A DNA stretch of 64,000 nucleotides from Xestospongia bergquistia (Eukaryota > Porifera > Demospongiae > Haplosclerida > Petrosiidae), in assembly GCA_963965975.1 (NCBI GenBank), contig OZ014417.1:5995821-6059820 (forward strand), in the 5' to 3' direction. Under the pieces are notes generated by a model. The model was not told the origin of the DNA. It was given only the letters and a program-made list of their open reading frames with translations, and did not search any database. The position numbers and the translations under genes are program-made. The first letter of the stretch is position 1; every line of letters begins with the position of its first letter. This document shows positions 13,237 through 55,745 of this stretch, piece by piece.

Positions 13237-13612
13237 TCAGTGACTACAATGTTTGTGAAATCTTCTCTAATTTCTTTTACTATTTGAACGATGTTTAAAC
13301 ATATTGATATTTGCTCATAAGGCAAAAGGTATATTGCATTTTGCACATGAGGGAAAAGTTTTATCGCTTTTTGCATGTAACGCAAAGGGTTTATTGCACT
13401 TTGGACATAAGGTGAAGGGTTTATTGCGTTTTGCACATAAGGCAAAAGTTTTATTGCATTTGGAGCATAAGGCAAAAGGTTTCTTGCATTTGGTGCAAAA
13501 TGTAAACGGTTTATTGCATTTTTGTAATAAGGCAAAAGGTTTACTGCAGTTTGCAAAATAAGGCGAAAGGTTTATTGCCAATTCAGTGACTGAAACATTT
13601 GTGAAGTCTTCT
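13237..13612. repeat. 30-bp minisatellite with a conserved flanking unit
   Basis: About nine units of roughly 30 bp (GGCAAAAGGTTTATTGCATT plus TTGCACATAA, with variants) lie at 13318-13590. They are preceded, and partly followed, by a conserved block (AAATTCAGTGACT..., TTTGTGAAATCTTCTCTAA). The same block and the same units recur at 19843-20210. Because the unit is 30 bp, several frames read as decapeptide repeats on both strands. That alone is not evidence of coding. Confidence 0.85.
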
Positions 13613-16020
13613 TTAACCCTTTAATAACCAATCTGCGCATGCGCGGTTTCACCATGTGACTGTTAAAATGAAATTTTTGGTGCCATTTTCTCTTACATTT
13701 TTCTCGTGATTTGTGTGTGGAAACTCTTCATACAGGTAAACCTTACTTAATTATACCTTGTTCTTCATATTTTGTTGTTATTTTGGCGAAGAAAATGTAC
13801 GGTTGTTGTGTTTTCAAGGAATGTTGTGGTGTAAGTTTGCTGAGTTTATAGGTAAGTAATCGATGTTATTTATCCTTTTTACTTTTGGTTATACATAAAA
13901 TATTATGATATAAATGAACAGAAAAGACTTAAGTAAGTACTTAGTGTGGTACTGTTCAAAGCATGACCTGTCATCATCAGTAGATCTTGATTGTACACAT
14001 AGGTGTATGTTACACTGATGACAAACTATAATTGTTTCATGTCTTTGGTTTAGATTGTACCAACAATGATAACATCTTCCTTTTTTTGCCCCTTTTATAG
14101 GAAAGTGATGAACAGTTCCAAAACTTCTTCGTTTTGTTGGTGTTGTTGATAAATCAAGTGCCGTAGAGAAAATATTGGTCGGTAAGCTATATCTTTTCCT
14201 GTTGTTGTAAGTAGAAATTAAATTTTCAGCCAACTGCAGACGGAAGTGTTTATATTGCTGCCAACTTCTAAAATCAGATCTCAGTGCGAAGTTCTTCAAT
14301 AAGACAAATGAGTTAGAGATGGAACATTCAAGAAGAAAATAGAATATGTACCTGAGGTGAGGTAGTTATAATCAAAAATAACAATTGATTGATAGTCCTT
14401 ACCTATAGTACTTTCTTGATTTTAGTTTTCTTTGATAATAGGATCGCATCTGATCTGCTCGATCCACCCCACCCATAAATTTATTATAAACTGTTGTGTG
14501 AGTTGGTGTTTTCACAGTTATTATTGTTCCATCTTTTTCTTTCCGTTGACAGGTTGTTGTGGATGGATTGCAGTTGGTGGAAATAACGTACACAAGTCTT
14601 TTATCTTTCCACACAGAGGCGACAATGTTTCCGCTTTGAACAAATACACAATCACCTCTTTGAAGATCACCTAAATGTTTATCAATAGGTTATCACACAC
14701 GCAATATTATTTATTACACCATTATCATAATTGTTATATTTTATTTACCTTGTTTGATTTCTTTTAGCTGAGTGGGTACAAATTTTATTTATTCGAAATG
14801 AACCACAGGCATATATTTCATCTTTGAGAAGTTTCTCGGGAACAGTTGTGAAATAGTTATCAAAGAATAGATGGTAGTTCCCTCCTACTAATTCTCTTGA
14901 TAGCTTTACAACAACTGATTCTCCTAGGTTATTTGTGATATTTTCCCCATCCTTACCACTATATATATCGAACTGGCAAATGTATCCATTTGAGCTATCT
15001 GCCCTTACCCATGCCTTGATGCCTCTTCTAATTGGTTTCTTAGGGACATATTGCTTCAAACTAGACCTACCCTTGAACCTAATCATTGCCTCGTCTATTG
15101 AGTTTTCTTTATGAGGCATGTAGCTATCAATCATTTTTGCATTTACAATATCAATAATTGGTCTTATTTTCCCAAGTTTATCATAACCATCTTCTCCCCT
15201 TTTAGGTAGTGTAGCGTTATCAACAAAATGTAAATACCATCTAATTTCAATAAATCTATTTCGGCTTATTCTGCTAGCCACAGGAAAATAATGTAGCATT
15301 GGACTAGTAGACCAGTAATCATAAAGGTGCGGTAACTTCACTATCCCCATAAGCACAATAAATCCAATAAACGCCCTTATTTCATTCACATTGGTTTCCC
15401 AGGTGGTATCATGTTTCTTCAAACAGTCTTTAGCATACCTGTTTGTCTCTCTTACAATTACACTTATGAGCTCATCGGAGAAGAAAGTATCGAATATCTC
15501 TATAGAATTAGCTATAGGTATTGTTGGGCCTACTTGTTTTGTAAATGGTTTTACAATCACATCTGACAATGTAGTAGACCATATTCTTGTATCCTCACTA
15601 CTGTTACTAGGTCCACCACTATCACTACCACGTTGACAACTACCACCAGCTCCACCTCTTACACTACCACATCCACCTCTTCCTCTACCACGTCCACATT
15701 CACTAATAATATGTCGACCCCTACTACCAGCTCCACCTCTTCCATTACCACTTCCACTGCTACCATGCCTGCTACTAACTCTTCCCCTACCTCGTCCTCT
15801 TTGCATACCACCTCTTGTGCTACTTTGTCCACCTGTCAAAGGACCTTGTCCTCCTCCACCATTGTTTTCCAATTGTTCACAAATTTCTTCATCATCATCA
15901 TCATCACTATTATGATCTTCATTTTGAGCAAACTGTAATTGTAACTATGTTTTCTTCAATTTCTTCATAACTACAGCTGGAATCAGTAATACAAAAGTCA
16001 TCATCATTTAAACAATACTG
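13613..16020 (-). mobile_element. piggyBac-type transposon, left end plus transposase
   Basis: TTAA at 13613-13616 is followed by CCCTTTAATAACCAATCTGC and GCATGCGC. This is the expected piggyBac arrangement of a TTAA target and a CCCTTT-like terminus. The transposase gene runs on the minus strand from about 15935 down to 13889. The matching right end is not next to it: antisense-oriented gypsy sequence begins near 16000. The best match to the missing end is at 26388-26420. Confidence 0.7.
13889..15935 (-). CDS. piggyBac transposase (DDE_Tnp_1_7), mostly uninterrupted
   Basis: Minus-strand exons fit at about 15935-14749, 14670-14403 (start ambiguous by 12 nt) and 14351-13889, with introns of about 51 and 78-90 nt. 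The order is an acidic N-terminus (poly-Asp near 15890-15910), a Gly/Arg-rich GRGRG region of about 70 residues, and the catalytic core. The expected aspartates are visible: SIDEAMIRFKGR, FFDNYFTT, and GGVDRADQ in exon 2. The C-terminus is a Cys-rich zinc-binding region (CYHC...CHQC...C). No stop interrupts the three exons. Upstream of 15935 the frame shifts near 15950, so the true start is not certain. The enzyme would excise and insert the element at TTAA. Introns inside a piggyBac gene are unusual but the junction 14403/14351 is exactly in phase. Confidence 0.8.
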
Positions 16021-32639: not shown

Positions 32640-33775
32640 CTCTAGAATGATTACAGTTTTGATGGATAGGTAAGATATTAATTGTTTTGTTTTGCAATGC
32701 AGTTTTAATGGGTAGGTAAGTTCTATTATGACACTATATTATTGCAATCTGTCTTATCATATACAGTTGTCATGCTGTAGCATCTTGCTCACACTATGTA
32801 TCTGTGGGTGCAAAACATCATATCTTGTTCCTTATGGGTTAGTATAACTACTTCTATTAAATATTTCTTATGTAATTAATTAGATTATTCTTAACATTGG
32901 TTAGAAACTTTTAAATAATTATATTTAACACCAAAATTAGTTAAAAACAAAAAAATGTATATACTTATTTTCTTAGATAATATATACCAATAATACAACA
33001 ATAACAAATACATGTTTAGATAATAATATAGAAGTTATATGATACAATATAAATTGACTTATAGTCTTCAACTGCAATGTTGTTCAGATTATGGTCCTAA
33101 ACCAAACTGTCTACATAACTTATACTTGTTATTGATGTACACAGAACATGATGACACAAATTAGCAATTTGCAGTTCCCATTGTGACACTAACATGGAAT
33201 GCTCAGCCCATAACAATTGTACATCTATCAGTGGATGGACAGGCAGTCAGATATTGTTTATATAATGTTAATAATAGTTAATGAGACAATAACATCAAAT
33301 ATACTGCTAATTTTTTATTGATAATAGATATCAATGAATGTTCACAAAAACTCATGTCAAGTTCCGTGTGCTAATACTAATGGATCATACTTCTGATCCT
33401 GTGATACACAAAGTGTCCTTGCTACTGATGGAATTCATTGCCTAGGTAGATATCATGTACAAAGGGTCTATGTTACTGTCAATAATTTAAATTGTGATAA
33501 GCACATTAGTCTTCCAATAATTTTTTTACATATCCATAAAAGGTTTTATAATGATCACATTTATATAAGGCATGTAAATTATGCTTCAAAATAGAGTGCA
33601 TAATTAAACAAATATTGTATTAATAATTAACATCACTCAGAAATTGAAAGTTTCTGTAATATTGCTAAAACCATTTTTTCAAACATTTCCTGTGTCACAC
33701 CTCAATGGACAATTAATGAATGAGGAAAAACACAGTGTATTAATTTTACTACATAGCAAGATGGTAAGTGACAGA
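32640..33775 (+). pseudogene. Partial receptor paralogue (5' exons, one EGF, EGF-CA, half FN3)
   Basis: Segments are collinear with the intact gene at 43115: the first-exon region, the second exon (CHAVASCSHYVSVG near 32780), the short YGPKPNCL exon near 33090, one EGF-like exon about 33164-33255, the calcium-binding EGF exon about 33329-33447 (DINECSQ-like start broken, TGA in the Y-x-C-S-C position), and the end of an FN3 exon to 33768. Stops and a missing FN3 half make it a pseudogene. Only one EGF repeat is present, against 36 in the intact gene. Confidence 0.6.
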
Positions 33776-39989: not shown

Positions 39990-41385
39990 CAACAAGCTGG
40001 ACAGTTTCAACTCGAACACGTGGAGGTTCCAAATGCGTCGCTAGTTAATGGCGAAAAGACTCTAAAGATTTGTAGAAGTACAGAGATACTCACCGAAGTA
40101 GCGAATCCTCAAGCACAAGTAGAATTTTACAAGAGGGCACAAAAGCATTTTCCTTAATTAAAATGGCAATCAGTACCCCGCACTGTACTTCGTGACCTCG
40201 TGCAAGCAACCGAAAGGTAGCCTGGGACACTTTACGTTACCACTTCGTTGGCAAACAAGCTCTTGTTGAAGAAGCAGTATTTTCAAGTGGAGGACATGTC
40301 GATGGTGTTGCACCTCTGAAGCACATGAAATGAGATTATTGATAAGTCTGCAAGCAATTGGAGACCTTATCTCAGAGGAGGACCAGGTGGTGAGTCTGGT
40401 GACTTTATTGGGTATCTTGCCACGGAGTTACTCCACCTTGTTAATAGCTCTGGAAGCTCGTGTTGTTAACATAAGACTCATTTTTGTCCAGCAAGCTCTC
40501 ATACTTAAGGAGCAGAAGCTAAAATGGCAGTTCGTGCATTTGAGATATACGTTATCTGGTAGTCGAATGGCCTCGGTGTTGATAGAGACACAAGAGAGAG
40601 TCAGACCAGGAAACTTAAATGTTTTGATAGTGGTGAGGAAGGTCATTTTTGCTGTAACTGTCCCAAACTAAAGTAATAAGAATGTTCAAGACTAGGACAT
40701 AGAGCCAAATCTGCTGAAGAGAAGCACTCAGACTCAGACAATGTCTTAGGATTTGCAGCACCTGTCAGCTAAAAGGATTCCCTCAGTTGGGTAAATGGCT
40801 AGTAAACTCAGAAGTGTCGAGTCATATTACACTGGAGAAGGAACTGTTGACATATTACAAGGAGTTTGATAAGCTATGGAAGCTTAGGCCAGGTGATGGT
40901 AGGAAGGTCGATGTAGTTAGTGTCAAAAATGTCCATGTGAACATGTTCTTTAGTATAAGTAAGTCCAAGAGGTGTATTATACACAAAGTGCTTTATGTAC
41001 CAAACTTGTGTGTAACTTGTTTTCAGTAAGAGCAGGAGGTAATAGAAGTAACTTCATAAAAATTTAGTCATTCACGATGTTGGATCTGAGATAAAAATAG
41101 AAAGTTGTGTGGTATGGAGTCACACGTACACAAGTTATATCAACTGGACTGTGAAACAGTCATCACCGAATATGTATCAATACCGTTAGAACAAGAAAAT
41201 GACAAATCTGTGGCATCAGTGGTTAGGACATTTTAATGTACAGCAACTCAAAGAAATCACTCAGAAGGAACATGCAACTAGTGTGAAATTTCAAAAGAAG
41301 CTAACGTGACGTTTCGCGATGGATGTGTTGAAAGCAAGATGCACGAGAAACCATTTAAGCCAGCATCAGAGTCAATAAGCAGAGT
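39990..41385 (+). pseudogene. Ty1/copia gag-protease-preintegrase relic
   Basis: Blocks in several frames follow copia order. A gag UBN2-type block (LISEEDQVV...LLGILPRSYSTLL followed by ALEARVVNIRL.FVQQAL) lies at 40330-40530. Then comes a degraded CCHC knuckle (CFDSGEEGHFCCNCPK, second Cys lost) and a protease-like block at 40787-41029 where the D-S-G active site reads NSE, with VLYVPNL at its end. A GAG-pre-integrase block (LWHQWLGHFNVQQLKEITQK...) lies near 41205-41380. Stops and frameshifts are many. Integrase and reverse transcriptase are absent, and no LTRs were identified. Confidence 0.65.
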
Positions 41386-43114: not shown

Positions 43115-46100
43115 ATGATGAAGCTCTTGATTGTTGTATTTTGTTATACAGTTTTGATGGATAAGTAAGTTATATTATAACACTGTATTATTGTAATCTG
43201 TCTTATCATGTACAGTTGTCAAGCTTTATCATCTTGCTTACACAATGTATCTGTATCTTTAATAACATCATATGTTGGATATTGTGGTTTGTTGAAAGAA
43301 AAACATTATCCAAATGGGTTAGTATAATATCCTCTATTAAATATTTTTTTATGTGTTTATGATTAAATTTTGATTATAATAAAGCATGACATCATGCAAT
43401 CCAAAATAAGCTAACAATATTTTCTATCACTTAGATTATTATTGACATGGGTTATAAACTTTTAATATATTTAACAACAAAATGTAGTTAAAACAAAAAT
43501 ATATATATATACTTATTTTCTAGATAGTACATGCACTAACAACAAGAAATACACGTTTATATTGTAATATAGAACTCACACTATCACAAAATATAAAGTA
43601 ATTTACATTCTTCAACTTCAATGTTGTTCAGGTTATGGTCCTAAGCCAAACTGTCTACGTAAGTTATATTTGTAATTTATTGGTATACACAGAACATTAT
43701 AATATGATAATTTAGCAATTTGCAGTTCCCAATGTAGCACTAACATGGCATGCACAGCTCCTGACACTTGTACATGTATCAATGGTTGGAAAGGCAGTGA
43801 CTGCTTAACACGTATGGTTACATTTTCTTGTGGACATTAAATTATTGTCTCCTCTTAACACAGCAAATTGCGGTTCAACATGTGGCACTAATAAAGAATG
43901 TACAGCTCCTGATACTTGTACATGTCAAAGTGGATGGAAAGGCAATGACTGCTTAACATGTATGGTTACCTTTTATTATGGAGACATAATTTTTCTTCCC
44001 TCTCAACACAGCAATTTGCAGTTCACCATGTGGCACTAACAAAAACTGTACAGCTCCTGACACTTGTACATGTATCAGTGGTTGGAAAGGCAGCGACTGC
44101 TTAACACGTATAGTTACATATATTTGTGCAAACATAGGTATTATTCTCTTTCAACACAGCAATTTGCAGTTCAATATGTGGCACCAACAAACAATGTACA
44201 GCTCCAGACAATTGTACATGTGTCAGTGGATGGAAAGGCATTGACTGCTTAACACGTGAAGTTACATTTTCTGGTGGACATATAATTATTATTTCCTCTC
44301 AAAACAGCAATTTGCAGTTCAACATGTGGCACTAACAAAAACTGTACAGCTCCTGACACTTGCACATGTATCAGTGGGTGGAAAGGCAGTGACTGCTTAA
44401 CACGTATGGTTAGATTTTTTTGTGGACATATAATTACTCTTAACATAGCAATTTGCAGTTCAACATGTGGCACTAACAAACAATGTACAGCTCCTGACAC
44501 TTGTAAATGTCTTAGAGGATGGAAAGGCAGTAACTGCTTAACACGTATGGTTACATTTTCTTGTGGACATATAATTATTGATTCCTCTTAACACAGCAAT
44601 TTGCATCTCAACATGTGGCACTAACAAAAACTGTACAGCTCCTAACACTTGCACGTGTATCAGTGGGTGGAAAGGCAATGACTGCTTAACGCGTATGGTT
44701 ACATTGTTTGTGGAGATATAATTACTCTCAACATAGCAATTTGCAGTTTAACATGTGGCACTAACAAAAACTGTACAGCACCTGACACTTGTACATGTGT
44801 CAGTGGCTGGAAAGGCAGTGACTGCTTAACACGTATGGTTATATTTTCTTGTGGACATATAATTATTGTTTCCTCTTGACACAGCAATTTGCAGTTCACC
44901 ATGTGGCACTAACAAACAATGTACAGCTCCTGACAATTGTACATGTCTTAGTGGATGGAAAGGCAGTAACTGCTTAACACGTATGGTTACATTTATTTGT
45001 GGACATATAATTATTATTTCCTCTTAACACAGCAACTTGCAATTCAACATGTGGCACTAACAAAAACTGTACAGCTCCTGACACTTGCACATGTATCAGT
45101 GGATGGAAAGGCAGTGACTGCTTAACACGTATGGTTACATTTTCTTGTGGACATATAATTACTCTTAACATAGCAATTTGCAGTTCAACATGTGGCACTA
45201 ACAAAAACTGTACAGCTCCTGATACTTGTACATGTGTCAGTGGATGGAAAGGCAGTGACTGCTTAACACGTATGGTTACATTTTCTTGTGCACATATAAT
45301 TATTGTTTCCTCTTGACACAGCAATTTGCAGTTCAACATGTGGCACTAACAAAAACTGTACAGCTCCTGACACTTGTACATGTCTTATTGGATGGAAAGG
45401 CAGTAACTGCTTAACACGTATGGTTACATTTTCTTGTGGACATATAATTACTCTTAACATAGCAATTTGCAGTTCAACATGTGGCACTAACAAAAACTGT
45501 ACAGCTCCTGATACTTGTACATGTGTCAGTGGATGGAAAGGCAGTGACTGCTTAACACGTATGGTTACATTTTCTTGTGCACATATAATTATTGTTTCCT
45601 TTTGACACAGCAATTTGCAGTTCAACATGTGGCACTAACAAAAACTGTACAGCTCCTGACACTTGTACATGTCTTATTGGATGGAAAGGCAGTAACTGCT
45701 TAACACGTATGGTTACATTTTCTTGTGGACATATAATTATTGTTTTCTCTTGACACAGCAATTTGTAGTTCAACATGTGGCACTAACAAACAATGTACAG
45801 CTCCTGACAATTGTACATGTCTTAGTGGATGGAAAGGCAGTAACTGCTTAACACGTATGGTTACATTTTCTTGTGGACATATAATTATTGTTTCCTCTTG
45901 ACACAGCAATTTGCAGTTCACCATGTGGCACTAACAAACAATGTACAGCTCCTGACACTTGTACGTGTATCAGTGGATGGAAAGGCAGTAACTGCTTAAC
46001 ACGTATGGTTACATATTTTTGTGGACATATAATTATTATTTCCTCTCAACATAGCAATTTGTAGTTCAACATGTGACACTAACAAGCAATGTACAGCTCC

Positions 46101-49100
46101 TGACACTTGTACGTGTATCAGTGGATGGAAAGGCAGTAACTGCTTAACACGTATGGTTACATATTTTTGTGGACATATAATTACTCTCAACATAGCAATT
46201 TGTAGTTCAACATGTGGCACTAACAAACAATGTACAGCTCCTGACACTTGTACGTGTATCAGTGGATGGAAAGGCAGTAACTGCTTAACACGTATGGTTA
46301 CATATTTTTGTGGACATATAATTATTATTTCCTCTCAACATAGCAATTTGTAGTTCAACATGTGGCACTAACAAGCAATGTACAGCTCCTGACACTTGTA
46401 CGTGTATCAGTGGATGGAAAGGCAGTAACTGCTTAACACGTATGGTTACATATTTTTGTGGACATATAATTACTCTTAACATAGCAATTTGCAGTTCAAC
46501 ATGTGGCACTAACAAACAATGTACAGCTCCTGACACTTGTACGTGTATCAGTGGATGGAAAGGCAGTAACTGCTTAACACGTATGGTTACATATTTTTGT
46601 GGACATATAATTACTCTCAACATAGCAATTTGTAGTTCAACATGTGGCACTAACAAACAATGTACAGCTCCTGACACTTGTACGTGTATCAGTGGATGGA
46701 AAGGCAGTAACTGCTTAACACGTATGGTTACATATTTTTGTGGACATATAATTATTATTTCCTCTCAACATAGCAATTTGTAGTTCAACATGTGGCACTA
46801 ACAAGCAATGTACAGCTCCTGACACTTGCACGTGTATCGATGGATGGAAAGGCAGTGACTGCTTAACACGTATGGTTACATTTTCTTGTGGACATATAAT
46901 TACTCTTAACATAGCAATTTGCAGTTCAACATGTGGCACTAACAAACAATGTACAGCTCCTGACACTTGTACGTGTATCAGTGGATGGAAAGGCAGTAAC
47001 TGCTTAACACGTATGGTTACATATTTTTGTGGACATATAATTACTCTCAACATAGCAATTTGTAGTTCAACATGTGGCACTAACAAGCAATGTACAGCTC
47101 CTGACACCTGCACGTGTATCAGTGGATGGAAAGGCAGTGACTGCTTAACACGTATGGTTACATTTTCTTGTAGACATATAATTACTCTTAACATAGCAAT
47201 TTGCAGTTCAACATGTGGCACTAACAAACAATGTACAGCTCCTGACACTTGTACATGTGTCAGCGGATGGAAAGGCAGTGACTGCTTAACACGTATAGTT
47301 ACATTTTCTTGTGGACATATAATTACTCTTAACATAGCAATTTGCATTTCAACATGTGGCACTAACAAACAATGTACAGCTCCTGACACTTGTACATGTG
47401 TCAGTGGATGGAATGGCAATGACTGCTTAACACGTATGGTTACATTTCCTTGTGGACATATAATTATTGTTTCCTCTTGACACAGCAATTTGCAATTCAA
47501 CATGTGGCACTAACAAAAACTGTACAGCTTCTGAAAATTGTACATGTCAAAGTGGATGGATAGGCAATGACTGCTTAACACGTAAGGTTATCTTTTTCTT
47601 ATGGAGATGTAATTATTGTTTCCTCTCAACACAGCAATTTGCAATTCAACATGTGGCATTAACAAAAACTGTACTGCTCCTGACACTTGCACGTGTATCA
47701 ATGGGTGGAAAGGCAGTAACTGCTCAACACGTATGTTAACATTTTCTTGTTGACATATAGTTATTGTTTCCTCTTAACACAGCAATTTGCAATTCAGCGT
47801 GTGGCACTAACAAACAATGTACAGCTCCTGACACTTGCACATGTATCAGTGGATGGAAAGGCAGTGACTGCTTAACACGTATGGTTACATATTTTTGTGG
47901 ACATATAATTACTCTCAACATAGCAATTTGCAGTTCAACATGTGGCACTAACAAACAATGTACAGCTCCTGACACTTGCACATGTATCAGTGGATGGAAA
48001 GGCAGTGACTGCTTAACACGTATGGTTACATATTTTTGTGGACATATAATTACTCTCAACATAGCAATTTGCAGTTCAACATGTGGCACTAACAAACAAT
48101 GTACAGCTCCTGACACTTGCACATGTATCAGTGGATGGAAAGGCAGTGACTGCTTAACACGTATGGTTACATATTTTTGTGGACATATAATTACTCTCAA
48201 CATAGCAATTTGCAGTTCAACATGTGGCACTAACAAACAATGTACAGCTCCTGACACTTGCACATGTATCAGTGGATGGAAAGGCAGTGACTGCTTAACA
48301 CGTATGGTTACATATTTTTGTGGACATATAATTACTCTCAACATAGCAATTTGTAGTTCAACATGTGGCACTAACAAGCAATGTACAGCTCCTGACACTT
48401 GCACGTGTATCAGTGGATGGAAAGGCAGTGACTGCTTAACACGTATGGTTACTTATTTTTGTGAACATATAATTACTCTCAACATAGCAATTTGTAGTTC
48501 AACATGTGGCACTAACAAACAATGTACAGCTCCTGACACTTGTACATGCCTTAGTGGCTGGAAAGGCAGTAACTGCTTAACACGTATGGTTACATTTTTT
48601 TGTGGACATATAATTACTCTAAACATAGCAATTTGCATTTCAACATGTGGCACTAACAAACAATGTACAGCTCCTGACACTTGTACATGTGTCAGTGGAT
48701 GGAAAGGCAGTAACTGCTTAACACGTATGGTTACATTTTATTGTGGATACATTATAATTATTAATTACACTCAACACAGCAATTTGCAATTCAACATGTG
48801 GCACTAATAAACAATGTACAGCTCTTGACACATGTACATGTGTCAGTGGATGGACTGGCAGTAACTGCTTAACAGGTATTGTTGATGTTGATATGAAATG
48901 ACTGTTTAACAGGTATGGTTATATATCCAATGGAACTCATTATATAGTTTAATAACAACACATAATTTGTAATGTTTATATTGAGATAATATGATTAATT
49001 GAAGAATTAGTAATTTGCGATAATCAACAAGACTATAACATTAAATATACTGTTATTGTATTATTGACAATAGATATCAATGAATGTTCATTAAACTCAT

Positions 49101-52100
49101 GTCAAGTTCATTGTATTAATACTAATGGATCATACTACTGCTCCTGTGATGCATCAACAATCCTTGCTTCTGATGGAATTCATTGCCTAGGTAGATAACA
49201 AAGTGTCTATGATAGAGATTATTCTCAATAACTTGGATTGTATTAAGCACATTAGTCTTCTAATAACATTTTTACATATCTATAAAAGGTTTTGTAATGA
49301 CCACATTTATTTAAGGGATGTAAAGAATGTTCTACAATAAAGTACATACCGGGTAATTAAATATATTGTAGTAATAACTCCTTTTTTCTGCATAGGAGGA
49401 ATTCAAGTCATGACCATTTCACAACTTACCAGTACACACTGCATATTAACATGGAATCCTCCATTTCAGTACATACAATATGGAAGTTTTCATGGTTACA
49501 TAGTGATGTGTAATATATCAATTACTAACTCTGTAATAGAATCAGATACCACTCAGAAATTGAATGTCTCTGTAATATTTCTAAAACCGTTTACTTCATA
49601 CATTTGCTGTGTCACACCTCAATGGACAACTAATGGAAAAGGAAAAACTCAATGTATTAATTTTACTACATTACAAGATGGTAAGTAACAGACTAGCATC
49701 TATTAATTTGGTTGGAAACTTCCAATTTAGCTCCTAATGACTCTCCAGTTAATGTTACAGTTAGTGTTGTTAATTCTTCATCTCTTCAAATTCAATGGGA
49801 GCCTCCATTGATACCTAATGGTATCATTACTCACTATACTATGTACATCAACTATACTAATGGTAGCGAGATATCTATTAGAACTGTAGATAGTCAGTTG
49901 ATACTATATCATCTGGAGGGACTGACACCCTATCAACTAGTAGGAGTAAGTCTCTCAGCTGCAACTAGTGGAGGAGAAGGACCTCAGTCAGACTATGTGT
50001 ATAATACAACTGAACAGACAGGTTAGATTGATTATTGAATAACTATACATACAAAAGGAATAGATAGATAAAAAGGGTTTGTAAATATTGTAATATCTTT
50101 TCATATGGTAAACTATAGAGCCAGGAACAATACATCACTTGACTTTCAATGTGCTATCTAACTCATCTGTCAACATTTCATGGGAGCCACCATTGATATC
50201 AAATGGAATTATTTTGTACTACTACATCAGTTTTAGGAGTTTGACAGAAAATCAATCTGTTGTACTTAGTCTTGAAGAAAACATATACATAATAAACAAC
50301 CTGAGTTGGTTACATATTTAATGATATTTTTTTATAATTTATATACTATTTATAGCTCCTTACACTCCATATGAAGTTAATGTCTCTGCAGTTACTATTG
50401 CTGGTATAGGAGAACCTTTGCTTAAAATATTTTTTACTAAGGAAACAGGTAAATCTTAAAGACACAAGTATATATATTAAATGTAATTTAAAATGAATAT
50501 CTATATCTTCCAATGTTTGTACTTCTCTGTAGTCCCCAGAGTGGCTCCAAAAATTAAAGTAGCACAGAGAGTTTCTTTAACTGAAATAATCATTAAAATA
50601 AAGGCTCTAACACTTGAAGAGGGGAGAGGAATTGTGACAGGATATTCGTTTAATCTGACCAAGTCAATAGACCATTGTATTGTGGTTGACATGAACAAAT
50701 TATTAATACATACTCTTAATACTTCAATTAAAGTAGGAAATCTGGATCCACTCTCAAAATATTGTTTGTCAGTGTCAGCACAAACTAAAGAAGGACATGG
50801 TTTGGTATCTCAAAATATATTAATTCCTGGTTAGTTTAATTATAAGTATAACTAAAACTTTTACACTATAGCTTTAAAGTATATGACAGCAAACAGATTG
50901 TTATGTATATCAATGGATTGGATAACTGTTATCTGTGGATAGTAAGTCATATAACAATGACAAATTTTATAATACAATTTCCTGTTATGATAGCTAAATA
51001 ACACTGAAAGTAAATTCAATGAGATTACTCAAGTCATAGTTACAGTGTTGAATAAAGTCTGTTTTTGTTCAATAACTTCAGACTATATATCAGATAACAC
51101 TTTACAATGTGACAATGAGCATACAATACAAATGAGAGCAAGATTATCTGCTATATCTAATTACACAACATCACAACTATTGACTATATTACAAAATTGG
51201 ACAAGAGATACTTCAGAAATAATAGTTGATGGACAAGTGTTAACAGTGACATCAGTTTATTTTCTTTCAAATGATATGACTCCAATACTTCCAACATCAA
51301 ATAATGATACAAAAAACAAAGTGGTTCTATTCAGTGCAATTGGTTTTGTTGGTGGCGTGTCATTTTTTTATTGTGTTTGTTGCATAATAATATCAGTTTG
51401 TATTTTAAAAAAGTTTAAATCAAAAAGAAATTACAAATTAAAAACAAGGTTTGTCTTTTAATGCAATTATAAGAAATTTTGTCATTACAATATATACAGA
51501 ACACAAAAAATAAAAGGAAGAAATGATGACAACAAAGATTTAGAAGCAGAAACAAAGTTTCATGATGAGCAGTACTTTGTATGTGATAACGATGATATTT
51601 CTCCGAATAGGTAATCAGATATTTATTACAAAATGATGTTTAATATGGAGTTTTCAATAGTTTTGTAGATTCTAAAGACTATTATGATGACATTATAATG
51701 GCTGAAAATTCCAAAAAAAAGTATGTATGATATTATATGTAATCTTGATGTGAGTAGTTGCAGTGTTTTCAATATCTTGAGTAATATTACTAACAATTGC
51801 ATTGCATATTGTCATTTGTTAGGCCAATGATCCCTACAAAATTAAGTGAAGGAAAAATAAAGGAAAGCAAATGTACAAGTACAGCTATTAGTACAAAAAC
51901 AAGGCAAGTAAATAAACTCTCATTTTGTCCATAGAAATGTTAAATGTCATGATATAACTATAGTGTATTTCGAAGTACCCCAAAAAAATCAACTCCTCCT
52001 GTTCTCCCTCCTAAAAAACTGAGGTAAACAAATTATATTGAAAGATGATATCACTCTACATATATACTATAGTAACCATGGAGCCTCAGACGTAGAACAT

Positions 52101-53823
52101 TTTGAAATGGCAAACAATTATAGTTATGGCAAAGTAATGCCAGCACAAAAGAAACCAACTCCTCCTGCTCCCTCTCCTAAGAAATCGAGGTAAACAAATT
52201 ATATCCAAAGATGATATCACTCTACAAATATACTATAGTAACCATGGAGCCTCAGATGTAGAACATTTTGAAATGGCAAACAATTATAGTTATGGCAAAG
52301 GAATACCTGAACAAAAGAAACCAACTCCTCCTGTTCCCCCTCCTAAGAAACCGATGTAAACCAATTATATTAAAAGATAATATCACTCTACATATATACT
52401 ATAGTAACCATGGAGTCTCAAACCAAGAACATTTTGAAATGGCAGACAATAAAAGTTATGGCAAGGTAATGCCAGCACAAAAGAAACCAACTCCTCCTGC
52501 TCCCCCTCCTAAGAAACCAAGGTGAACAAATTATATTCAAAGATGATATCACTCTACATATATACTATAGTAACCATGGAGCCTCAGACGTAGAACATTT
52601 TGAAATGGCAGACAATTATAGTTATGGCAAAGTAATGCCAGCACAAAAGAAACCAACTCCTCCTGCTCCCCCTTCTAAGAAACCGAGGTAAACCAATTAT
52701 ATTAAAAGATGATATCACTCTACGTATATACTATAGTAACCATGGAGCCTCAGATGTAGAACATTTTGAAATGGCAAACAATTATAGTTATGGCAAAGTA
52801 ATGCCAGCACAAAAGAAACCAACACCTTCTGTTCCCCCTCCTAAGAAACTGAGGTGAACAAATTATATTCAAAGATGATATCACTCTACATATATACTAT
52901 AGTAACCATGGAGCCTCAGATGTAGAACATTTTGAAATGGCAGACAATTATAGTTATAGCAAAGTAATGCCAACACAAAAGAAACCAACTCCTCCTGTTC
53001 CCCCTCCTAAGAAACCAAAGTAAAGAAATTATATTCAAAGATGACATCACTCTATAAATATACTATAGTAACCATGGAGCCTCAGATGTAGAACATTTTG
53101 AAATGGCAGACAATTATAGTTATGGCAAAGTAATGCCAGCACAAAAGAAACCAACTCCTCCTGCTCCCCCTTCTAAGAAACCGAGGTAAACCAATTATAT
53201 TAAAAGATGATATCACTCTACGTATATACTATAGTAACCATGGAGCCTCAGATGTAGAACATTTTGAAATGGCAAACAATTATAGTTATGGCAAAGTAAT
53301 ACCAGCACAAAAGAAACCAACACCTCCTGTTCCCCCTCTTAAGAAACCGAGGTAGACCAATTATATTCAATGATGACATTACTCTACAAACATACTATAG
53401 TAACCATGGAGCCTCAGATGTAGAACATTTTGAAATGGCAAACAATTATAGTTATGGTAAAAAAATACCTGAAGAAAAGAACTCAACTCCTTCTGTTCTC
53501 CCTCCTAAGAAAGCAAGGTAAACCAGTTATGTTCAGTGATGACTTCATTGTACATATAGTAAACATGGAGCCTCGGATGTAGAAAATTTTGAAAAGGCAT
53601 ACAATTATGGTTATGGCAACGAAATGCCTTCACAAAAGAACCCAACCCCTCCTGCTCCTCCTCCTAAGAAAGCAGGGTAAACTAATCTTATATAATGATT
53701 ACATACACTGTGCATATATTCTATAGTAAAAATGGAACCTCAGATGTAGCACAGCTTGAAACGCCATATTATTATTATAGTTATGGCAAAGAAGTATCTG
53801 CACAAAAGCAAGGAATGCTTTAG
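43115..53823 (+). CDS. Giant EGF/FN3 type I transmembrane receptor with repeated proline-rich tail
   Basis: ATG 43115 starts a signal-like peptide (MMKLLIVVFCYTVLM). Exon 2 is 43216-43317 and a 27-nt exon is 43632-43658; the phase between these two does not match, so an extra exon or another site is likely. Then come 36 EGF exons (43716-48875), a calcium-binding EGF (49074-49190, DINEC), FN3 exons 49396-49680, 49731-50021, 50119-50304 plus 50356-50448, and 50533-50829, a short exon 50880-50941, and a membrane-proximal domain with the transmembrane helix (50994-51448, helix near VVLFSAIGFVGG...). Cytoplasmic exons are 51500-51610, 51661-51720, 51823-51903, 51964-52023, ten 117-nt repeats and a last exon 53727 to TAG 53821-53823. 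From 43632 on every junction is in phase and open, so the gene looks intact (about 2,330 residues). No kinase or phosphatase domain is present. Adhesion or recognition with SH3-adaptor signalling is inferred from the domains. Confidence 0.85.
43716..48875 (+). repeat. Array of 36 tandem EGF-like exons
   Basis: Each unit is one 96-nt exon (phase 1 to 1) encoding 32 residues with spacing C-x3-C-x5-C-x5-C-x1-C-x8-C, for example CSSTCGTNKQC then TAPDTCTC and GWKGSDC. Units start at 43716, 43864, 44012, 44160, 44308, 44449 and so on to 48780. The period is 141 bp (45-nt intron) or 148 bp (52-nt intron): 16 introns of 45 nt, 16 of 52, and one each of 44, 53 and 55. The first and last units are the most diverged. 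The block 47783-48442 is almost identical from unit to unit, which points to recent expansion or gene conversion. The last unit ends in G, giving the Asp of the next EGF-CA exon. Confidence 0.9.
52073..53823 (+). repeat. Array of 11 proline-rich cytoplasmic exons
   Basis: Ten 117-nt exons (phase 2 to 2; starts 52073, 52239, 52405, 52571, 52737, 52903, 53069, 53235, 53401 and 53560) and a shorter last one (53727) are separated by mostly 49-nt introns. The consensus is NHGASDVEHFEMA, then NNYSYGKVMPAQKK, then PTPPAPPPKKPR. The PxxPxK core fits class II SH3 ligands, and the Tyr residues could be phosphorylated. All copies are open. Copies 2 and 6 change the last codon at the splice site (ending AT and AA instead of AG) without losing the donor GT. 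Confidence 0.85.
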
Positions 53824-55321: not shown

Positions 55322-55745
55322 TTATGTTCTAGAAGTGAAGACACTTTCATGGTGACTTCCTAATGGGCATTTTAATTTCTTAAAAATACAAACTGATATT
55401 ATTATATGACAAACACAAAGAAACAATGACAAGCCACCAGCAGAACCAATTGTACTGAATAAAATCACTTTGTTTTTTGTGTTAGTTTTATTATTTAAAG
55501 TTTGATTTAAATTATAACTACCAGATACTGGAGTTATATCATTTGACAGAAAATAAATTGATATCACTGTTAGCATCTGTCCATCAACTATTATTTCTGA
55601 AGTATCTCTTGTCCAATTTTGCAATATAGTCAATAGTTGTGATGTTGTGAAATAATAATAGAAGATAATCTTTGTATTGTATCCTCACTATCACATTGTA
55701 AATTGTTATCTGATATATAAATACCGCCAAAACAAATAGACAGAT
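55322..55745 (-). pseudogene. Solo transmembrane-exon fragment of the receptor family
   Basis: The minus strand encodes the membrane-proximal region and helix of the family (LLTILQNWTRDTSEIIVDGQ, then KVILFSTIGSAGG... and IIISVCIFKKLK), followed by non-homologous residues to a stop at 55322. The upstream half (SDNNLQCD near 55700) is frameshifted. No neighbouring receptor exons were found. Confidence 0.65.

Follow-up and report, generated by a model that had tools for sequence, protein, structure and literature searches.

A receptor gene, to all appearances intact, lies at 43115-53823 on the forward strand of the window, the 64,000-nucleotide (nt) stretch of the Xestospongia bergquistia genome that was analysed (G000:C7:5995821-6059820; genome searched, 146.5 Mb in 21 contigs). 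The gene was modelled with 62 exons in a single frame, giving a coding sequence of 7,059 nt including the stop codon and a product of 2,352 amino acids (aa), in which two arrays of symmetric exons flank one transmembrane (TM) helix. The introns of the model are GT-AG throughout, with the sole exception of a GC-AG intron after exon 51823-51903. The model bears out the coordinates and the two-array, single-helix architecture proposed in an earlier, sequence-only reading of the window. Two exons, 43573-43658 and a 62-nt exon at 50880-50941 on the 5' side of the membrane-proximal exon, were recovered by alignment with paralogs and were included because a continuous frame needs both. A 27-nt guess for exon 3 and the first guess for the start of the membrane-proximal region broke the frame, and both were replaced after the paralog alignment.

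The protein begins with a signal-type N-terminus in exon 1 (43115-43164), which is conserved in the paralogs, followed by an EMI-like head whose first half is encoded by exon 2 (43216-43317) and whose second half, with the sequence QCCSGYG containing the CCxGY motif, is encoded by the recovered exon 3 (43573-43658). The head is followed by 36 EGF exons (43716-48875). An initial pattern search found 35 of them and the full check 36, and all 36 are open, 96 nt long and in phase 1-1, as the sequence-only reading had described them; each is flanked by AG and GT and keeps its six cysteines in register. Since every one of these exons has 96 nt while the lengths of the 35 intervening introns range from 44 to 55 nt, the units are read as coding. 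Over eleven loci, 153 of 158 EGF exons passed the four checks (length, AG/GT ends, absence of a stop, and cysteines), and 147 of the 158 units showed a relaxed spacing of the NIM type. Pfam analysis of three concatenated units returned EGF_PEAR1L (1.6e-15) and EGF_Teneurin (3e-12), both over the cut-off. A calcium-binding-type EGF exon (49074-49190; Pfam EGF_CA, 4e-7) precedes an FN3 stalk of four fn3 stretches, of which the second (49731-50021; 2.9e-12) and the third (50119-50448, in exons 50119-50304 and 50356-50448; 6.9e-15) were over the Pfam cut-off, and the first (49396-49680; 4.3e-5, just under) and the fourth (50533-50829; 9e-4) were below it. The 62-nt exon that comes next is conserved in the 11 aligned loci. 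Elsewhere in the genome, an open frame of 4,819 codons at G000:C10:6548416-6562416 contains EGF matches every 114 nt; this array is intron-free, unlike the exon-wise array of the window gene.

The following exon (50994-51448) encodes a membrane-proximal domain and the TM helix, the latter identified as the one hydropathy region >1.6 in 21-residue windows. The domain matched no Pfam family above the cut-off and no PDB profile at E<=1, and a search of the sponge's own genome detected distant relatives on contigs C12 and C5 and at 5.32 Mb on C7, the contig of the window. The C12 gene (L049 1951-2424 and 2501-3118) has the distant membrane-proximal domain (27-30% identity) and, after it, a long frame rich in prolines and tyrosines; frames upstream of it look Ig-like by eye, and the one tested matched no Pfam family at E<=10.

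The cytoplasmic tail, which extends 541 aa past the helix core, is encoded by exons T1 (51500-51610), T2 (51661-51720), T3 (51823-51903) and the short, proline-rich T4 (51964-52023), by ten repeat exons (52073-53676) of 117 nt in phase 2-2, each specifying 39 aa with a proline-rich end, and by a terminal exon with the stop codon (53727-53823). The eleven proline-rich phase-2 exons counted in the sequence-only reading are reached by adding T4 or the terminal exon to the ten repeats, but the terminal exon lacks the proline motif. Its prediction of SH3 ligands in the tail fared better: a class I or II SH3 consensus was present in 54 of 62 tail rows, which include T4-type, terminal and stray rows, and shuffling residues within each row gave a mean of 12.2 and a maximum of 22. 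A PxxxPR reading of the tail yielded 0 occurrences once the exons were spliced. T2 contains the only YDDI tyrosine motif of the window tail, and its tyrosine was present in all nine copies in which T2 was found, as YDDI in seven, YDDM in L045 and YDEN in L043. We take YDDI to be similar to a Src-family SH2 ligand.

The window gene is one member of a large clustered family. Its membrane-proximal exon gave 66 matches in the genome, 36 of them near-full (at least 127 of 133 residues), and all 36 were on C7, 32 at 5.67-6.55 Mb (within 0.88 Mb) and four at 3.47-4.01 Mb. This exon was stop-free in 34 of the 36 near-full copies. All 113 matches to the tail unit at E<=0.01 were also on C7, as were all of the EGF-unit matches scored (the best 150 of 464 candidates). 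Of the 36 near-full copies, 13 were examined for array length. The window gene contained 36 EGF exons, L041 29, L043 19, L044 16, L039 15, L047 12, L046 12 (8 intact), L042 11, L040 seven (one without a cysteine), L048 one and L045 none; counts made by tblastn alone were 15 for L054 and four for L055. Tail repeat units, counted by eye for each gene minus T4, terminal and stray rows, numbered ten in the window gene, nine in L040, eight in L039, six each in L041 and L044, five in L043 and four in L042, with a frame break in one unit of L041 and one of L043. In L054 a single full unit was seen together with a terminal-type match, and L047 had no tail repeat unit in the sequence stretch examined. 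Exons were assembled in seven copies (the window gene and L039-L044), up to T2 only in the paralogs, and all seven had open frames between the signal exon and T2, every splice site fitting the consensus. Each of these open copies has an EGF array and several tail units, so the presence of both arrays characterises the family.

Decayed copies are real (L045 and L046 are examples) but atypical, and the idea in the sequence-only reading that the gene stands alone among decayed relatives is not supported, given seven open copies with both arrays. Its related statement that the relatives keep far fewer units holds inside the window, where a decayed relative on the forward strand (32672-33676), consisting of a signal-like piece, a CCSDY exon, one EGF (33167-33256), a calcium-type EGF with a stop and an FN3 piece, shows a single EGF, but outside the window there are many long arrays of both kinds. 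The convergent paralog on the reverse strand (L030, 60186-63886) is damaged by a stop in its first FN3 domain; it has two weak tail-type matches, and its EGF part lies past the window end. A membrane-proximal/TM exon fragment of another copy was found at 55370-55737, also on the reverse strand.

Repeat number changed strongly between close copies. A tree built from 30 membrane-proximal exons placed L010, which is the L039 gene (5.746 Mb), next to the window gene (support 99/94), and L026 (5.760 Mb) next to the convergent copy L030 (support 100/98). A block duplication of a convergent gene pair is therefore probable. The window gene and L039 had a synonymous divergence (dS) of 0.047 and a nonsynonymous divergence (dN) of 0.032 over 631 backbone codons, with 36 versus 15 EGF exons, in agreement with the earlier prediction that array length can change without a frame break. 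By eye, their EGF units showed no order-preserving match except for the last unit. L042 and L044 (dS 0.060) had 11 and 16 EGF exons, respectively. Among the 158 EGF exons, the nearest neighbour lay within the same gene at a frequency of 0.627, as compared with 0.134 (maximum 0.221) after shuffling. Introns between the window EGF exons differed by a mean of 0.110, which is below the difference at synonymous sites of the exons (0.163), and those of the window tail by 0.133. Of the window EGF exon sequences, 25 occurred once, four twice and one three times. These observations fit a turnover of the arrays in which exon-intron units of the same gene have repeatedly undergone unequal exchange.

Selection was estimated by pooled Nei-Gojobori dN/dS, in which the pairs are not independent, so the values are indications. 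Among the window EGF units the ratio was 0.36, and among those of eight other loci it ranged from 0.26 to 0.84. The calcium-type EGF gave 0.54, the FN3 exons lay between 0.31 and 0.56, and the membrane-proximal exon gave 0.72 (eight copies).

Kinase genes were also found in the cluster. Among the matches listed, the kinase scan placed those on C7 at 4.54, 6.34, 6.46, 6.49 (two), 6.50 and 6.94 Mb; none of the listed matches fell within the window range, and the tail model of the window gene contains no kinase domain. Two of the cluster kinase genes, L051 and L052, which were read from open frames without exon assembly, share with the window gene an EMI-like CCSGYG exon, and their EGF exons belong to one family with those of the window gene (73-81% identical to the window-type unit). 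They differ from it in having two EGF exons and, in place of the FN3 domains and the repeat tail, a Ser/Thr/Pro stalk, then a TM-like stretch and the kinase exons. A search with the L052 kinase exon gave at least 22 near-full matches with an identity of 75% or higher (best 150 of 211 candidates scored), six on C7 (five inside 5.67-6.55 Mb), nine on C10, two on C6, four on C2 and one on C4. On C10, a tandem array of nine near-full copies and one partial copy of this kinase subfamily occupies G000:C10:547683-581390. The single C10 copy that was read (L053) had an Fz-like ectodomain (E 0.0011, under the cut-off) and no EGF match at E<=0.001. Judging from this different ectodomain, either the head and the kinase were joined within the cluster or the head was derived from such kinases.

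The head resembles that of the PEAR1, Draper and Nimrod receptors, with its CCxGY motif, EGF_PEAR1L repeats and weak EMI matches. CCxGY was strict in six of seven heads, the window gene included, and the seventh had CCPGF. EMI was matched in one of the seven heads (E 0.031) and in the head of one cluster kinase (E 0.051), and because every EMI match was below the cut-off, this domain remains a lead. A scan of the genome for EMI gave no match, but such a scan cannot join exons, and the controls gave no match either. Searched against PDB profiles, the head alignment had six matches at E<=1, the best being a Delta-like protein (0.0058) over its EGF part; the EMI-like part alone had none at E<=1.

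EMI is described as preceding such EGF repeats in Draper (PMC8092387) and in PEAR1, where the EMI domain and 15 EGF-like repeats are accompanied by several tyrosines and five proline-rich domains (PMC6550786). The sequence-only reading knew of no described receptor in which a long EGF array is joined to repeated SH3 ligands in the tail; because PEAR1 already combines EGF repeats with several proline-rich tail stretches, the pairing has precedent. The window family is like PEAR1 and JEDI (MEGF12) in its repeats of the EGF_PEAR1L kind, EMI-like head, one TM helix, tail tyrosines and proline-rich stretches (PMC6550786), and differs from them in the FN3 stalk, the calcium-type EGF, an array length that reaches 36 exons, the placement of the tail motifs on equal-size repeat exons, the lack of NPxY and the dozens of clustered copies. 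Draper and MEGF10 carry an immunoreceptor tyrosine-based activation motif (ITAM) and NPxY, and CED-1 carries YxxL and NPxY (PMC8092387). These receptors share with the window gene an EMI-like head followed by NIM/EGF repeats, a single TM helix and a tail tyrosine, whereas the window gene has a tail without ITAM or NPxY, an FN3 stalk and repeated SH3-type units. In Nimrod proteins such as Eater and NimB2, a CCxGY motif likewise stands ahead of an array of NIM repeats, CxPxCxxxCxNGxCxxPxxCxCxxGY (PMC4073527); in the EGF unit of the window family the loop between Cys 2 and Cys 3 has one extra residue and W replaces Y, and the family has in addition the FN3 stalk and the repeat tail. The features that set the family apart from these receptors are the FN3 stalk, the repeat-exon tail, the number and clustering of copies, arrays whose length changes from one close copy to the next, and the existence of kinases that share the head. 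Among the open-licence full texts listed under the terms used, there was no account of this family or of a sponge EGF/FN3 receptor cluster.

We propose that the window gene encodes an engulfment, adhesion or recognition receptor with a PEAR1/Draper/Nimrod-like head that docks SH3 and SH2 proteins, a reading to which we give about an even chance. It is backed by the signal-type start, the CCxGY head, the NIM-like EGF array, the FN3 stalk, the one TM helix and the tail with YDDI and proline-rich units. The head and the EGF array would bind ligands on other cells, on particles or on copies of the same family, and the proline-rich tail units would dock SH3 proteins with a valency set by exon number. 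Upon clustering, YDDI could be phosphorylated and hold an SH2 protein, for example a Src-family kinase, which would lead to engulfment, adhesion or recognition; the kinase receptors with this head in the cluster may be co-receptors. Array length would shift through unequal exchange between repeat exons.

Several results weigh against this proposal. EMI was not reported at E<=10 in six of the seven heads, and it was absent from the results when the kinase head was searched within a longer piece. The longer Cys 2-3 loop and the W in place of Y account for the absence of the strict NIM motif (from its PxC on) from all 158 EGF units. ITAM, NPxY and the immunoreceptor tyrosine-based inhibitory motif had 0 matches in the window tail. 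The tail is under weak constraint, with dN/dS values of 0.77 among the ten window units, 0.68 in T1 (eight copies) and 0.87 in T2 (seven copies), and the ratio of 1.00 in the head (seven copies) is compatible with relaxed or diversifying selection, so that by this measure constraint on head and tail is weak or absent. The EGF units of L039 reached 0.84.

The head ratio also speaks for a rival account, in which the cluster would be an allorecognition or immune receptor complex: array length and sequence would vary from individual to individual and inform self/non-self decisions, with kinase and scaffold partners. The 36 near-full copies on one chromosome, the fast turnover of arrays between close copies and the heads common to kinase and non-kinase receptors point the same way. 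This evidence comes from one assembly and gives a single-genome view, however; clustered receptor families may equally serve engulfment, microbe binding or adhesion, and the EGF units and FN3 stalk are under purifying, not diversifying, selection. We regard an allorecognition role as unlikely. The same low weight goes to a broader conjecture, that the near-megabase cluster is an undescribed recognition complex in a sponge-like animal, in which PEAR1/Draper-like heads sit on kinase-bearing receptors or on kinase-free ones, exon number in the latter sets reach and docking valency, and individual length sets would serve self/non-self or microbe recognition. Somewhat less doubtful, though still improbable, is a general adhesion receptor family whose repeat number drifts neutrally, length being meaningless in itself. 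The EGF introns differ less than synonymous exon sites do, so copying involves entire exon-intron units, and the loss of unit order between the closest sisters, the last unit excepted, also agrees with drift. Yet the units stay intact, in the window gene and across the eleven loci, which argues that the units matter, although their number perhaps does not.

The tail could instead be a ligand for a non-SH3 partner such as an endocytic adaptor, through YxxPhi signals, and the presence of YGKV or YSKV in seven of the ten window tail units fits such a role. The enrichment of class I/II SH3 consensus over the shuffles speaks against it, as do the 0 matches to PPxY and FPPPP in the 541-aa window tail, and we consider it a doubtful account of the tail. 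That the locus is an assembly artefact or a pseudogene is highly improbable: most units differ, the 62 exons hold one frame, six other copies are open to T2 and dN/dS is below 1. Some window units are identical, so the exact EGF number could be off, and some copies, L045 and L046, have in fact decayed.

If the proposed receptor family serves recognition, it offers concrete genes with which to study self/non-self or particle choice in early-branching animals. The seven assembled copies form a natural series on a similar backbone, in which EGF exons range from 7 to 36 and tail units from about 4 to 10, presumably changing reach and docking valency. Repeat-exon number can change by more than a factor of two while the backbone has diverged by only ~5% at synonymous sites.

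The rest of the window contains mobile-element sequences. Copia-type pieces lie at 40330-41029 on the forward strand, ~2 kb upstream of the receptor gene (Retrotran_gag_2, 9.4e-6, just under the cut-off; Pol_BBD, 3.8e-10). A DDE_1 endonuclease piece (2.3e-9) is found at 45-389 and hAT-type transposon pieces at 838-2755 (zf-BED, 1e-11; hAT dimerisation domain, 3.8e-18), both on the forward strand. On the reverse strand, 14745-15872 encodes a DDE_Tnp_1_7 transposase (3e-58), presumably piggyBac-like. A nested 30/60/90-nt tandem repeat with frames open on both strands occupies 13302-13578.

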